From an uncultured Clostridia bacterium (lineage in GTDB: Bacteria; Bacillota; Clostridia; TANB77; CAG-508), in contig CANPVM010000008.1 in NCBI GenBank assembly GCA_947581805.1, positions 1-64,000 of the forward strand: a stretch of 64,000 nt of DNA, given 5' to 3'. Position numbers and translations under genes: made by a program. Below, piece by piece: positions 21,750-41,591 of the stretch; position 1 is the stretch's first letter, and each line of letters opens with the position of its first letter. Under the pieces are notes generated by a model. The model ran no database searches, was not told the origin of the DNA, and was given only the letters and a program-made list of their open reading frames with translations.

Positions 21750-22026
21750 AAAAAAACTCGCCCTTCTATTTAAGGGCGAGCATATTTCTCACGGTACCAC
21801 CTTAAGTTAAATAAATAGAAATTCCATGTAAGGTTCTATTTATTTTTCTTATTTTGCTTTTTAACGCTAGCAACGCGAATATAGTTACTTTTTATTTCTC
21901 TATATTAACTCCAAAGCTACCTTCTGTTTGCTATTCTATAAGAAGCTCTCAGCCTGTCACTTCTTTTCTCTTTCTAGCTAGTTCAAACATACTCCTCTTT
22001 TTCTTTGTTTTTTATTTTTTACTATG
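21750..22026 (-). promoter_or_regulatory. T-box riboswitch leader of valS
   Basis: On the minus strand the leader contains the conserved T-box sequence GGTGGTACCGTGAG (21801-21788), which pairs with uncharged tRNA acceptor ends. It is followed by a terminator whose 9-bp stem (21772-21780 with 21757-21765) precedes a T-tract. Upstream lies a long stem I region with the GA-rich GCTGAGAG. A valine specifier (GTA) is plausible in GAAGGTAGC, but I could not fix it. Low tRNA-Val charging is expected to favour valS expression. Confidence 0.9.
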
Positions 22027-38303: not shown

Positions 38304-39128
38304 TTACTCTTTCTTCAAACTTTTCTTATTTTCTTTTTCTAATTGTTTTAAACTCTTTTTTGGTGTAGGTAAATCTTCTGGCATTGTTCCACCATTCTTT
38401 GCAATTACTTCTCTAATATTTTTCCCAATATTATAATGAGTCTTATTAGCTTCTTTCTCACTTTGTATGTTATCTTTCTTTAATTTTTGTTCTGTTTGAG
38501 AAATTCTAAATAAATTTGCTATAAGTTCATCACTTCCCATATTATCTAAAATATCTTCTCTATACCTTAATCCTTTCCTTTTTGCAATATCATCAGCTGT
38601 TTCGCCATTATATAAACCTTTATATCCGCTATTGTGAAATTTATCAAAATTTTTTACACCTGCTTTTTTAGCTGTTTGGTTAAGTGAATAATTGCCTTTC
38701 TTTGTTAAGTTTCTTTGGTAGAATCTCTTTTCATCTTCTGTTAATAACGTATACTCTTTTTCGCTAATTTCTTGTTTTCTAGTTTGAACTGCAAAATATG
38801 TTTGTGCAAGTGCAATAACTTTCTTTCTACTATCTCCATTTTGTGCTATTAAATAACAAGCATAACGTGTTAATTTATAATCTTTTTGTTTTCTCTCTGC
38901 TCCTGAACCTATTTGTACCATTTTGTCGATGTCGACAAAATGGTCAAATGCACTAATATCACTATTTGTGCAAGACTCTTTTGCTTTGTTTATAACGTTT
39001 TCAAATTTTCGCCATTCTTTATAATTTAAAACTAATTGTAATTCTCTAGCATACCAAAATTCAATACCATTTTCATCAACATGTTTGATATCTTCAAATG
39101 ATTTATTATTTTTATCTATTTCTTTCAT
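38304..39128 (-). CDS. dinD: DNA-damage-inducible protein D homologue
   Basis: A 274-residue DinD-family protein. It opens with an antirepressor-like Bro domain (GIEFWYARELQLVLNYKEWRKFENVI) and continues with DYKLTRYACYLIAQNGDSRK and the DinD-specific KFHNSGYKGLYNGETADDIAKRKG. In E. coli DinD is SOS-induced and inhibits RecA filament activities; the homologue may act likewise. Upstream is a perfect promoter whose spacer carries an ACAA-N4-TTGT operator shared with lexA and recN. The C terminus is Lys-rich. It is at the left border of an accessory segment. Confidence 0.9.
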   Translation of the reverse strand: MKEIDKNNKSFEDIKHVDENGIEFWYARELQLVLNYKEWRKFENVINKAKESCTNSDISAFDHFVDIDKMVQIGSGAERKQKDYKLTRYACYLIAQNGDSRKKVIALAQTYFAVQTRKQEISEKEYTLLTEDEKRFYQRNLTKKGNYSLNQTAKKAGVKNFDKFHNSGYKGLYNGETADDIAKRKGLRYREDILDNMGSDELIANLFRISQTEQKLKKDNIQSEKEANKTHYNIGKNIREVIAKNGGTMPEDLPTPKKSLKQLEKENKKSLKKE

Positions 39129-39166
39129 TTACATCATCTCCATTTTTACATATTTTTATGTTTATA

Positions 39167-39195
39167 ATTATAAAACAATTGTTTGTAATTGTCAA
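39167..39195 (-). promoter_or_regulatory. dinD promoter with candidate LexA operator
   Basis: On the minus strand TTGACA (39195-39190) and TATAAT (39172-39167) are spaced by 17 bases. The plus-strand sequence ACAATTGTTTGT (39175-39186) fits ACAA-N4-TTGT and fills the spacer. Confidence 0.75.
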
Positions 39196-39367
39196 TGATA
39201 TTTTAAACTTTTCTATCTTCACGAACTTGTTTCTCATTATATTCAATTTTTGTCTTGATAGAAATCCTAACCCAGTAAGAGTTAATTAAGTACACTTTAT
39301 AAAATTTATGTTATAGACAAAAAGACAGATATAAAATTATGGGTTTAAAAGTAGTAGATATATTACA

Positions 39368-39979
39368 TTACTTATCAATATTACTTAATTTTTTTATAAA
39401 TAAAAAATTAAATGAATCTTTTCTACCTAGCATATTTTTAATAATAGTATCATAATCAAAAGGAATACCCAGCTGATTATCACCTATTTTATTAGAATTA
39501 ATTACATAAAAATTATTATCCTCATCGATATCACTAATCACTAAATAATGTCCATTTTTAGAAAATGTCAAAGGACTTTCTGCAGATGGTCCTACATGAA
39601 TTATAGCCATATTACCTTGCTTTACTAAATCAATTATTTTCTCTTTTTGACTATTAATATTTAAAAAGTCTATTTTTACAATCTCATAAGAAATATTGAA
39701 TTTATCTTCTTTTATTAATCTTTCTATACAGTATATTAATCCTTTATCGTTTATTCCTCTATTTCTTAAATATGTTTTATCAAAATTACCATTTTTATCA
39801 AACAATATTTTTTTTGCTATATCTATTGGATCAACTTCAAAGCCATAGTTTCTTAATATATTAGCTATAGATGTTGGTCCACATCCATACTTTTCTAAAC
39901 TCCAATCTAAATCAGTAAATTTATCTATTTCTTGTAAATGAAAATCTCTTTGTTTATATCTTATTTTGTTATTATTCAT
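39368..39979 (-). CDS. C39-like cysteine peptidase family protein
   Basis: A 203-residue protein of the papain-like C39_2 type. The putative catalytic cysteine lies in KYGCGPTSIANILRNYG at about residue 33, and the histidine and aspartate in NGHYLVISDIDEDN at about residue 143. No signal peptide or transporter domain is present, so it acts in the cytoplasm or is exported by another route. It follows the methyltransferase gene by 18 bases on the same strand, which implies co-expression. The pair may modify or cleave a shared substrate, but no precursor peptide gene was recognised. Confidence 0.75.
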   Translation of the reverse strand: MNNNKIRYKQRDFHLQEIDKFTDLDWSLEKYGCGPTSIANILRNYGFEVDPIDIAKKILFDKNGNFDKTYLRNRGINDKGLIYCIERLIKEDKFNISYEIVKIDFLNINSQKEKIIDLVKQGNMAIIHVGPSAESPLTFSKNGHYLVISDIDEDNNFYVINSNKIGDNQLGIPFDYDTIIKNMLGRKDSFNFLFIKKLSNIDK

Positions 39980-39997
39980 ATAAAATCACCTTACATA

Positions 39998-40801
39998 TTA
40001 TTTATTTGCAATATAATAAAGAACTGTCATTGTATAATAAAAATCTTCTTTTTGAAAATTTTGTTTTAATTTATATAACAACTCTTCCATTTCATTTTTT
40101 ACTTTTTCTGATACATTACTTTTATTCATTGCACTTCTAAAACCAATGGAACCATCAAAAAATTTTAATCTTTGTTCAAGTGTTTTTCCAATAGTATCAC
40201 TAACTGAATAATATAATTTAATATTATTATAATTGTTTTGAACTAAGTAATTATAAACTTTTTTACCTATATATCTATCAGTATATTTTGTTATATTTTG
40301 CTTTTTCATAATTTCATTTTCATATAAATAAAATATTTTATGCAATAAGTCTTCATTATCTGGATAACAAAATTTAAAACTATCATCTGGCACTTTAATT
40401 ATTATTATTCCCCTATCGGTAAGAATACTTTTTAACTTTTTTAAAATTTTTTGTGGATGTTCTAAGTGCTGTAAAACATATGACAAATTTATAACATCAT
40501 AGTTTGAACATTTATTTAAATTATCAATACTTTTTAATTCAAAACTATATTTTTTATCCTCTTTAAAGTTTACTTTTGCTTCATTTATTGCATTTTCATC
40601 AATATCTATTCCTGTTATACTTGTAATATTATCATATTTATCAAATAGCATTTTAGTTTTAAAACCATTTGAGCACCCAATATCTAAAACTTTTAAATTA
40701 CTATATTTCAATATTCCAGATTCATTTAAAACATAGTCATCAAACTTTTGATTACCAATAGCTTGTTTTTTTAGTTTATCTAAATTCCAATTATTACTCA
40801 T
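39998..40801 (-). CDS. class I SAM-dependent methyltransferase
   Basis: A 267-residue Rossmann-fold methyltransferase. Motif I is KVLDIGCSNGFKTKMLF near residue 33, the acidic motif II is ITGIDIDENAI, and motif IV is YDVINLSYVLQHLEHP, a common layout for small-molecule methylases. ATG 40801 is chosen for its GAGGAG site. The composition is very A+T-rich. It is the first gene of a two-gene unit with the C39-like peptidase inside a possible cassette. The substrate is unknown. Confidence 0.8.
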   Translation of the reverse strand: MSNNWNLDKLKKQAIGNQKFDDYVLNESGILKYSNLKVLDIGCSNGFKTKMLFDKYDNITSITGIDIDENAINEAKVNFKEDKKYSFELKSIDNLNKCSNYDVINLSYVLQHLEHPQKILKKLKSILTDRGIIIIKVPDDSFKFCYPDNEDLLHKIFYLYENEIMKKQNITKYTDRYIGKKVYNYLVQNNYNNIKLYYSVSDTIGKTLEQRLKFFDGSIGFRSAMNKSNVSEKVKNEMEELLYKLKQNFQKEDFYYTMTVLYYIANK

Positions 40802-41150
40802 ATTATTCTCCTCATTTTTATTTATAATAGCACGAAAATCTCTATTTATCAAGCAAATATTATATTTTGAACAATTGATATTTTTATATTATTTTCTTAA
40901 AAGTTATGAGTTCTTGCTAGAACATATGACATCTTTGCAAACGAAGTTTGAAAGTGTCATAGTGGGTTACATACTTTCGTAAGAAAGTTATGTAACAGTT
41001 ACTAATTGATTTTTTACTTATCTACCTACTGAAAGTAATAATATTGAACAAGAATAATAAATTTTTTAGTGTACTTAACTAAATCGTTCTCCCCTATAAG
41101 TTTTGACCATTGGTACAAAACTCATGGATTACATAGTACATACTGAAAAT
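40802..41150. other. gene-free spacer rich in hairpins
   Basis: About 350 bases without a credible gene. It contains a strong hairpin (GTTACAT-ACTTTC with GAAAGT-TATGTAAC, about 40964-40998), a weaker ATGACA/TGTCAT hairpin (about 40926-40960), and the right inverted repeat of the candidate cassette at 41068-41082. It may be a decayed end of a mobile element. Confidence 0.45.
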
Positions 41151-41156
41151 AAAATT

Positions 41157-41188
41157 AAAAAAATACCATCCTTTTTCAGAATGGTATT
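41157..41188 (-). terminator. terminator of the tRNA operon
   Basis: On the minus strand AATACCAT pairs with ATGGTATT across a 14-base loop and is followed by TTTTT. It lies directly after the CCA end of the tRNA-Tyr gene. Confidence 0.8.
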
Positions 41189-41189
41189 T

Positions 41190-41496
41190 TGGTGGGCAGG
41201 GATGGATTCGAACCATCGTACTCGTATGAGAACAGATTTCTTACTACTATAGTTTTCACTACCATTTAAAATGTTTGTAGTCTGGACTTTCTCTTTATCT
41301 CTTTCAAGATACTAGGTATAAAGTCTCTACACTCGGAAATTGCTTTCCTAGCTCGGGATTGTCATCAGCCTAACTGCTAAGAGTTCCCCGAATTAGCCTA
41401 GTTTTCATCTTATTATTACTAATAAGAGCTGCAAATTTAGGTTTTGAAAAACCAAAGACCACAGTCTGCCGCCTTTAGCCACTCGGCCACCTACCC
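41190..41496 (-). tRNA. tRNA-Tyr (GUA) interrupted by a group I intron
   Basis: Exons are 41496-41461 (36 nt) and 41239-41190 (50 nt, CCA encoded). The acceptor GGGTAGG pairs with CCTGCCC, the D arm is typical, and the T arm is GATGG-TTCGAAT-CCATC. Joining the exons makes the anticodon stem CAGA/TCTG with the loop CTGTAAA, so the anticodon is GTA, and there is a long variable arm as in Tyr tRNAs. The interruption lies between anticodon positions 35 and 36. It is in tandem with tRNA-Met. Confidence 0.88.
41240..41460 (-). other. group I self-splicing intron (221 nt, no ORF)
   Basis: On the minus strand the intron has the conserved core elements in order: P-like AATTCGGGGAACTC, Q-like AATCCCGAGC, R-like GTGTAGAGACTTT and S-like AAGAGAAAGTCCAGAC. 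It ends in G (41240), the omega-G. The 5' exon end CTGT can pair with GCAG within the intron, leaving a U-G pair at the splice site, as group I introns require. The overall look resembles the small tRNA introns of the cyanobacterial type. No homing endonuclease is encoded. Confidence 0.88.
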
Positions 41497-41513: not shown

Positions 41514-41591
41514 TGGTGCTCCATCAAGGATTCGAACCTTGGACCCACCGGTTATGAGCCGGTTGCTCTGACCAACTGAGCTAATGGAGCA
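41514..41591 (-). tRNA. tRNA-Met (CAU)
   Basis: The full cloverleaf is visible on the minus strand. The 7-bp acceptor TGCTCCA pairs with TGGAGCA, followed by CCA. The D arm is GCTCAGTTGGTCAGAGC, the anticodon arm ACCGG-CTCATAA-CCGGT has the anticodon CAT, and the T arm is CAAGG-TTCGAAT-CCTTG. The lack of initiator features points to elongator Met. A CAU anticodon could instead be tRNA-Ile2 after lysidine modification. Confidence 0.88.

Follow-up and report, generated by a model that had tools for sequence, protein, structure and literature searches.

A tyrosine tRNA gene broken within its anticodon raises two questions: how it can still serve its cell, and what brought the interruption there. 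Such a gene lies in an uncultured Clostridia bacterium (GTDB lineage TANB77; CAG-508; assembly GCA_947581805.1), in the stretch that we call the window, positions 1 to 64,000 of contig CANPVM010000008.1. On the minus strand of the window, a 221-nt group I intron (41460–41240), inserted between U35 and A36 and ending in G, interrupts a tRNA-Tyr(GUA) gene (41496–41190). We regard it as probable that this intron is a functional ribozyme belonging to a mobile tRNA-intron family that is spread, mostly collaboratively, by tRNA-specific homing endonucleases.

The borders were set by empty sites. In a BLAST search of the window gene against 56 relatives, intronless tRNA-Tyr genes of the same genus matched query positions 1–40 and 262–312 as abutting segments, with 100% match to the window exons in examples such as G015, G011 and G024; these contiguous exon matches place the intron at 41460–41240, with a length of 221 nt. 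Intron-bearing full-length copies were 85–99% identical within the genus and 74–90% in other families. The 5′ exon (41461–41496, minus strand; G1–U35, 36 nt) ends in CUGU, and the 3′ exon (41190–41239, minus strand; 50 nt) runs from A36 to the encoded CCA and includes a long variable arm; both are defined by the empty sites and by ARAGORN on the joined exons. Joining the two halves (41496–41461 and 41239–41190) in silico gives the junction CTGTAAATCTG and a normal class II tRNA-Tyr(gta) with the stem-loop CAGACTGTAAATCTG, and ARAGORN detects the unspliced gene solely with its intron option, as i(37,221). The original prediction, which had read a 221-nt intron with a terminal G between GU and A of the anticodon, thus proved exact to the base. 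A tRNA-Met(CAU) gene lies 17 nt upstream (41514–41590, minus strand; ARAGORN and Rfam), and a terminator-like inverted repeat with a T run follows on the 3′ side (41150–41188, minus strand; by sequence). Elsewhere in the window, Rfam finds a T-box leader at 22014–21769 on the minus strand (101 bits) with a 907-codon ORF downstream, presumably encoding valyl-tRNA synthetase from the look of its sequence. In the same genome, two tRNA-like genes (L030:1501–1700; G000:C2:13966–14154) score low, have unusual anticodon loops and go unrecognised by ARAGORN.

Standard annotation passes over this intron. The default ARAGORN search of the window did not detect the interrupted tRNA-Tyr, and a whole-window Rfam scan at gathering thresholds reported nothing at the intron. 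In a 501-base search the group I model RF00028 matched 41456–41265 with 41.1 bits and an E-value of 3.8e-9, below the family gathering score of 50, which is why the thresholded scan is silent there; the Rfam check suggested earlier therefore yields a significant match that falls short of the family cut-off. Since both default tools miss the interrupted gene, genomes of the order will often appear to lack tRNA-Tyr. A threshold of this kind does not describe structure, and the group I assignment derives instead from the borders, from covariation and from homology to a 237-nt intron of the same genome, inserted after U36 of tRNA-Thr(UGU) (G000:C1:181066–181302, minus strand), which scores 54.2 bits with RF00028.

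The conserved elements can be followed along the minus strand: the internal guide UUUGCAG (41429–41435), the P element as 5′ strand of P4 (41384–41394), the Q element as its 3′ strand (41351–41360), the R element (41322–41332) with the P7 5′ strand GACU at 41325–41322, and the S element (41284–41296) with the P7 3′ strand AGUC at 41288–41285. P and Q were assigned from sequence and covariation, R and S from sequence and alignment, and the guide from sequence and the comparison of exons and guides given below. For the fold, 60 diverse relatives (52 Tyr, 4 Thr and 4 Asn introns), selected by script so that no pair exceeded an alignment score of 93%, were aligned by sequence alone, and the structure (P2, P3, P4, P5, P6, P7, P8 and P9) was drawn from the window sequence. 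Across 52 pairs including P3 and P7, 94.0% of 3043 cells were paired, compared with 34–41% when the partners were slid; both sides varied in 37 of the 52 pairs, and compensatory double changes filled 375 cells against a shuffled mean of 102. P3 covaried in all five of its pairs, P7 was 100% paired and invariant and so gave no covariation signal, and core positions were invariant in all 60 sequences. The alignment supports the full group I fold, with P4–P6 and P3–P8 domains and the P3/P7 pseudoknot, and bears out the class and the P, Q, R and S elements proposed from the sequence. We take the intron to resemble the Anabaena tRNA-Leu intron of subgroup IC3.

As had also been predicted, the 5′ exon CUGU pairs with the intron GCAG (41432–41429) to form P1, with a U-G pair at the splice site; in addition, the UUU of the guide can pair with the 3′ exon AAA (P10). 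Across the introns compared, the Tyr junction is CTGT^AAATC with mostly GCAG as guide, the Thr junction TTGT^AATCA with GCAC, and the Asn junction CTGT^TAACC with UUAGCAG in four of five cases. Counting against a functional ribozyme, thermodynamic folding of the P1 region by itself preferred the exon GCAGA paired with UUUGC over the canonical P1.

The genomic record indicates that the gene has to be spliced. An RF00028 search of the window's own genome matched the tRNA-Thr intron alone, and gene-specific patterns were used for the Tyr intron instead. By these patterns 39 of 191 genomes of the order carry the Tyr intron, and the intact GACTGTAAATCYG stem-loop occurs in none of the 39. A GRCTGTAAATCYG match is absent from 35 of them, the other four (G127, G128, G161 and G199) matching solely as GGCTG, and is present in 136 of the 152 intron-less genomes; a reversed-pattern control gave 0 matches across the 191. 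That intron and intact site never meet in one genome implies that the interrupted gene must be spliced to work. The genome that holds the window, 99.67% complete in 11 contigs, was searched for a second, intact tRNA-Tyr and yielded none; the interrupted copy is the sole tRNA-Tyr gene seen. From the ARAGORN list for this draft, tRNA-Ala, -Cys, -Ile(GAU) and -Asn are likewise missing, which points to assembly gaps, and an unassembled second tRNA-Tyr could exist in this one genome considered alone. Together with the sub-threshold RF00028 score, these missing tRNAs are what would speak for a degenerate intron in a tRNA-Tyr pseudogene, its intact counterpart hidden elsewhere; we give that explanation almost no credence, given an invariant core, stems that covary over 60 sequences, and the opposite distributions of the intact stem-loops in intron-bearing and other genomes.

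A pattern combining the R and S elements with the tRNA-Tyr 3′ exon matched at least 118 stretches of public genome contigs. Three CPR matches (L163, L165 and L179) lack a tRNA-Tyr 5′ exon; they represent different group I introns and were removed ahead of the counts, leaving at least 115 named genome contigs with a Tyr intron; some of the 115 listed loci end at a contig edge before the 5′ exon. Locus counts refer to named genome contigs only and genome counts to the separate sample of the order, some loci standing in both sets. Among the titles seen, nearly all of these contigs are labelled as gut Clostridia or Bacilli, with single outlier labels among the matches listed (Anaerolineales, L111; Armatimonadetes, L170). 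The pattern was found in 0 of 397 other genomes sampled across the phylum, of which 14 of those listed share the class. A tRNA-Tyr host, originally expected to be unusual for a clostridial genome, is thus common within this order and absent from the remaining phylum sample. A search of plasmids gave no match; seven phage records gave short matches at the 3′ end alone, covering 21–28% of the query. A bacteriophage contig (L196:3000–3650) carries a related group I intron in a tRNA-Tyr within a tRNA gene array; a passage of a 2014 review (PMC3984707) places all phage introns then known in protein genes. As regards the flank, an isolated 40-nt sequence at G002:C11:5223–5262 (L075) duplicates the tRNA-Tyr 3′ end exactly, and integrase-bearing islands adjoin tRNA-Tyr in G063 and G091 (L213, L214); from the lone copy and the islands, the 3′ end of the intron-bearing tRNA-Tyr looks like an attachment site.

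Six-frame hmmsearch with --max found no endonuclease gene or remnant in the window, so we infer the mobility of its Tyr copy from relatives. Among the 115 Tyr loci listed, 41 have a free-standing PD-(D/E)XK gene just 3′ of the tRNA, always on the same strand; measured from 45 nt inside the 3′ exon, 35 of these 41 matches begin 60–99 nt further on, and 35 have at least 105 aligned residues without a stop. In relatives the gene begins shortly past the point matching the terminator-like repeat of the window, where it is absent. Downstream of the window tRNA, Bro-N, C39-like peptidase and methyltransferase genes occupy 38304–40852 on the minus strand; an insertion here may have pushed aside an endonuclease gene or taken its place. 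In 8 of the 115 listed loci the PD-(D/E)XK gene is embedded in the intron, which is then 567–636 nt long with an ORF of about 130 codons ahead of the guide sequence, in the P1 loop. The protein passes the Pfam PDDEXK_5 cut-off (6.6e-17 to 5e-23), its profile matches PDB 2OST (E 3e-7), and its AlphaFold model (pLDDT 83.6) has I-Ssp6803I as best PDB match (TM 0.81); the D...QxK motif residues D39, Q52 and K54 are invariant in 14 rows, and dN/dS between copies is 0.17–0.39. By profile, fold and motif the product is a predicted homing endonuclease of the I-Ssp6803I type.

In the order, 19 of the 39 genomes with the intron have a full-length PD-(D/E)XK gene, against 0 of the 152 without it (Fisher 1e-15, a test that ignores relatedness among carriers spanning three families), full-length meaning E<1e-50, a cut chosen once the list had been seen. 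With a cut of E≤1e-5, matches number 25 of 39 and 10 of 152; the latter ten are remnants or distant homologues, including an intact homologue that lies apart from tRNA-Tyr in G025. Next to intronless tRNA-Tyr genes the remnants are broken or partial (one stop in G024, two in G025, fragments in G189), the pattern expected after intron loss. Fourteen of the 19 full-length genes, one of which has an in-frame stop (G017), lie within about 600 nt of tRNA-Tyr; the other five lie about 1.1 kb away (G171), about 9 kb away (G063 and G091, where an island with an integrase recognised by eye intervenes) or on other contigs (G105 and G153). Restriction of the full-length gene to intron-bearing genomes is what collaborative homing predicts. 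Counting against such homing, no enzyme is recognisable within 1.6 kb of 66 of the 115 listed Tyr introns; for 11 of these 66 the flank is less than 600 nt long. Along with the enzyme-free window copy and the islands inserted beside tRNA-Tyr in G063 and G091, this would suit a resident, vertically inherited self-splicing intron at a tRNA hotspot of integration, its neighbouring endonucleases being passengers unrelated to it. We consider that account quite unlikely, as passengers should not be matched to tRNA identity, embedded in the intron of the same tRNA in Bacilli, confined to intron-bearing genomes at full length, or so tightly clustered in offset and strand among the listed loci; moreover, the intron-bearing gene of G045, from another family, is closer to that of the window (90% identity) than that of the same-genus G013 (85%).

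The preferred reading, a mobile family served by tRNA-specific endonucleases, gains a second case in the tRNA-Thr intron, which the original prediction had missed together with the endonucleases. Downstream of intron-bearing tRNA-Thr(UGU) genes lies an HNH gene, intact in the window's genome (G000:C1:180558–180944), whose product passes the Pfam HNH cut-off (5.7e-5) and is unrelated to the PD-(D/E)XK family; its dN/dS is 0.08–0.12. The full-length gene occurs in 15 of 56 relatives, 14 of the 18 with the Thr intron and 1 of the 38 without (Fisher 7e-9); two further copies of the tRNA-Thr locus (L008, L016) were excluded from the region census. Relatives, and the tRNA-Thr of this genome, thus show an ORF-less intron beside a free-standing endonuclease gene, an arrangement that the window's tRNA-Tyr lacks. 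In Bacilli the HNH family is embedded in the tRNA-Thr intron, where it occupies the P5/P6 part between P and Q (L119, L120, L131, L173 and L183), as opposed to the P1 loop used in Tyr introns, and in L183 a tRNA-Thr with embedded HNH neighbours a tRNA-Tyr with embedded PD-(D/E)XK. No PD-(D/E)XK gene was found in or just after Thr introns and no HNH gene in or after Tyr introns, save two Thr records that precede a neighbouring Tyr intron; five tRNA-Asn introns had neither gene in or after them.

The exception among the relatives, G025 (L209, G025:C44), has an intact HNH gene about 200 nt from an intronless tRNA-Thr and counts against the preferred reading. Its tRNA-Thr flank matches that of the intron-bearing relatives L044 and L045, and the locus looks like a precise intron loss or an unfilled site. 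G025 would fit a different division of labour, in which free enzymes home independently into the 3′ flank of a tRNA that they happen to share with the intron, and reverse splicing at UGU accounts for most intron spread. Tyr and Thr introns share UGU^AA and so lie one anticodon position apart in the two tRNAs, and insertion after UGU, at position 35 or 36, is common to Tyr, Thr and Asn introns. A core tree of 136 rows, built by a quick method with SH-aLRT support only, needs at least seven host changes; for the Tyr label, starred branches force four of them. The window intron falls in a clade of 83 Tyr introns and the Bacilli Tyr introns cluster with Thr introns (97 and starred in both cases), the Tyr and Thr introns of L131 and of L184 being sisters in each genome. 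For those Bacilli Tyr introns included in the alignment, the guide is GCAC, as in Thr introns; together with the host changes, this implies that introns moved, or were converted, between tRNA genes; these jumps could reflect reverse splicing or conversion between introns. As an account of the whole, this division of labour nevertheless seems to us unlikely, though not negligible: full-length PD-(D/E)XK genes are found only with the intron, an intronless carrier would be endangered by self-cleavage, and the remnants at intronless tRNA-Tyr genes are broken or partial. As a source of jumps between tRNAs, reverse splicing may operate alongside endonuclease-driven spread.

Other hosts fit the same family. 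tRNA-Asn(GUU) introns occur in relatives L062–L066; With a core pattern independent of the host gene, 64 of the order's 191 genomes give a match; 20 extra loci that were read comprise 11 tRNA-Thr(UGU) by ARAGORN, six with a tRNA-Asn 3′ exon, one tRNA-Leu(UAA) (L252), one tRNA-Lys(CUU) (L265) and one unsettled (L253). Among these loci, ARAGORN calls of Phe, Leu or Asp for tRNA-Asn introns were rejected, the 3′ exon being that of tRNA-Asn. The enzyme trees trace the step between free and embedded genes. On the PD-(D/E)XK tree (34 free, 8 embedded), where the bootstrap had yet to converge completely and L111 sits on a very long branch, the free or embedded label needs three changes, all forced by starred branches; sister position of a free (L167) and an embedded (L145) copy, with support 100/99, means that the gene moved into or out of the intron within Bacilli, in either direction. 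For HNH (10 free, 5 embedded genes), a single change suffices on the tree. We lean towards two parallel tRNA-specific collaborative-homing units in cellular bacteria, with the enzymes embedded in Bacilli and the introns jumping via the shared UGU.

In the mechanism that we propose, the window intron would leave pre-tRNA-Tyr through two guanosine-started transesterifications guided by UUUGCAG, repairing at the RNA level the sole tRNA-Tyr gene found in this genome. Spread to intronless alleles would most likely be driven by site-specific endonucleases, PD-(D/E)XK for tRNA-Tyr and HNH for tRNA-Thr(UGU), whose target sites and cleavage are presumptive. In this order the enzyme would usually stand free 3′ of the tRNA, the intron would destroy the target, and intron and enzyme gene would move in one conversion tract by double-strand-break repair, as in phage psbA collaborative homing; in Bacilli, the same enzyme families would act from within the intron. 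The window Tyr copy may represent a late stage of this cycle, with intron retained and enzyme gene gone; the tRNA-Thr intron of the same genome retains its intact HNH neighbour.

Group I introns in the anticodon loops of bacterial and plastid tRNAs are known from tRNA-Leu(UAA), tRNA-fMet, tRNA-Ile2 and tRNA-Arg and belong to subgroup IC3. The window intron shares with them its small size, anticodon-loop position, P3–P9 core, U-G splice pair and terminal G, and the tRNA-Leu(UAA) intron at L252 is a member of that kind within the order. It differs in hosts, which here are tRNA-Tyr, tRNA-Thr(UGU), tRNA-Asn and the one tRNA-Lys(CUU), and in the Tyr, Thr and Asn insertion after UGU. In a search of the open-licence PMC literature, bacterial tRNA-Tyr, -Thr and -Asn did not appear among the reported hosts of group I introns. 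Cyanobacterial tRNA-Arg, -Gly and -Lys group I introns of 22–49 nt, as given in part of one source (PMC5733544), were set aside as too short. The comparison suggests that the intron itself belongs to a known kind in unusual hosts, and that the pairing of tRNA-matched free and embedded enzymes in cells is new.

For the enzyme, the closest relative is I-Ssp6803I, which the pertinent sections of its description assign to the Synechocystis tRNA-fMet intron (PMC1995217; PDB 2OST). Both have the PD-(D/E)XK fold and a link to a tRNA anticodon-loop intron; the enzyme described here, about 22% identical, is unlike it in being tied to tRNA-Tyr and in standing mostly free 3′ of the tRNA. For the arrangement, the model is collaborative homing of the cyanophage S-PM2 psbA intron with F-CphI, as outlined in excerpts of two papers (PMC6083498, PMC3984707), the latter describing such homing from two phages and as a route to composite mobile introns. 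In both systems an ORF-less group I intron adjoins a free endonuclease gene and intron-bearing alleles carry the enzyme, so far as those excerpts go; in contrast to the phage case, ours concerns cellular genomes, tRNA hosts, two parallel enzyme types (PD-(D/E)XK and HNH) and presumed cleavage. Two independent cellular series, each with one fixed target and with the enzyme free-standing, embedded, decayed or absent, make the composite-intron route testable. If the reading holds, the two tRNA-specific units would provide a natural before-and-after series of how a composite mobile intron forms.
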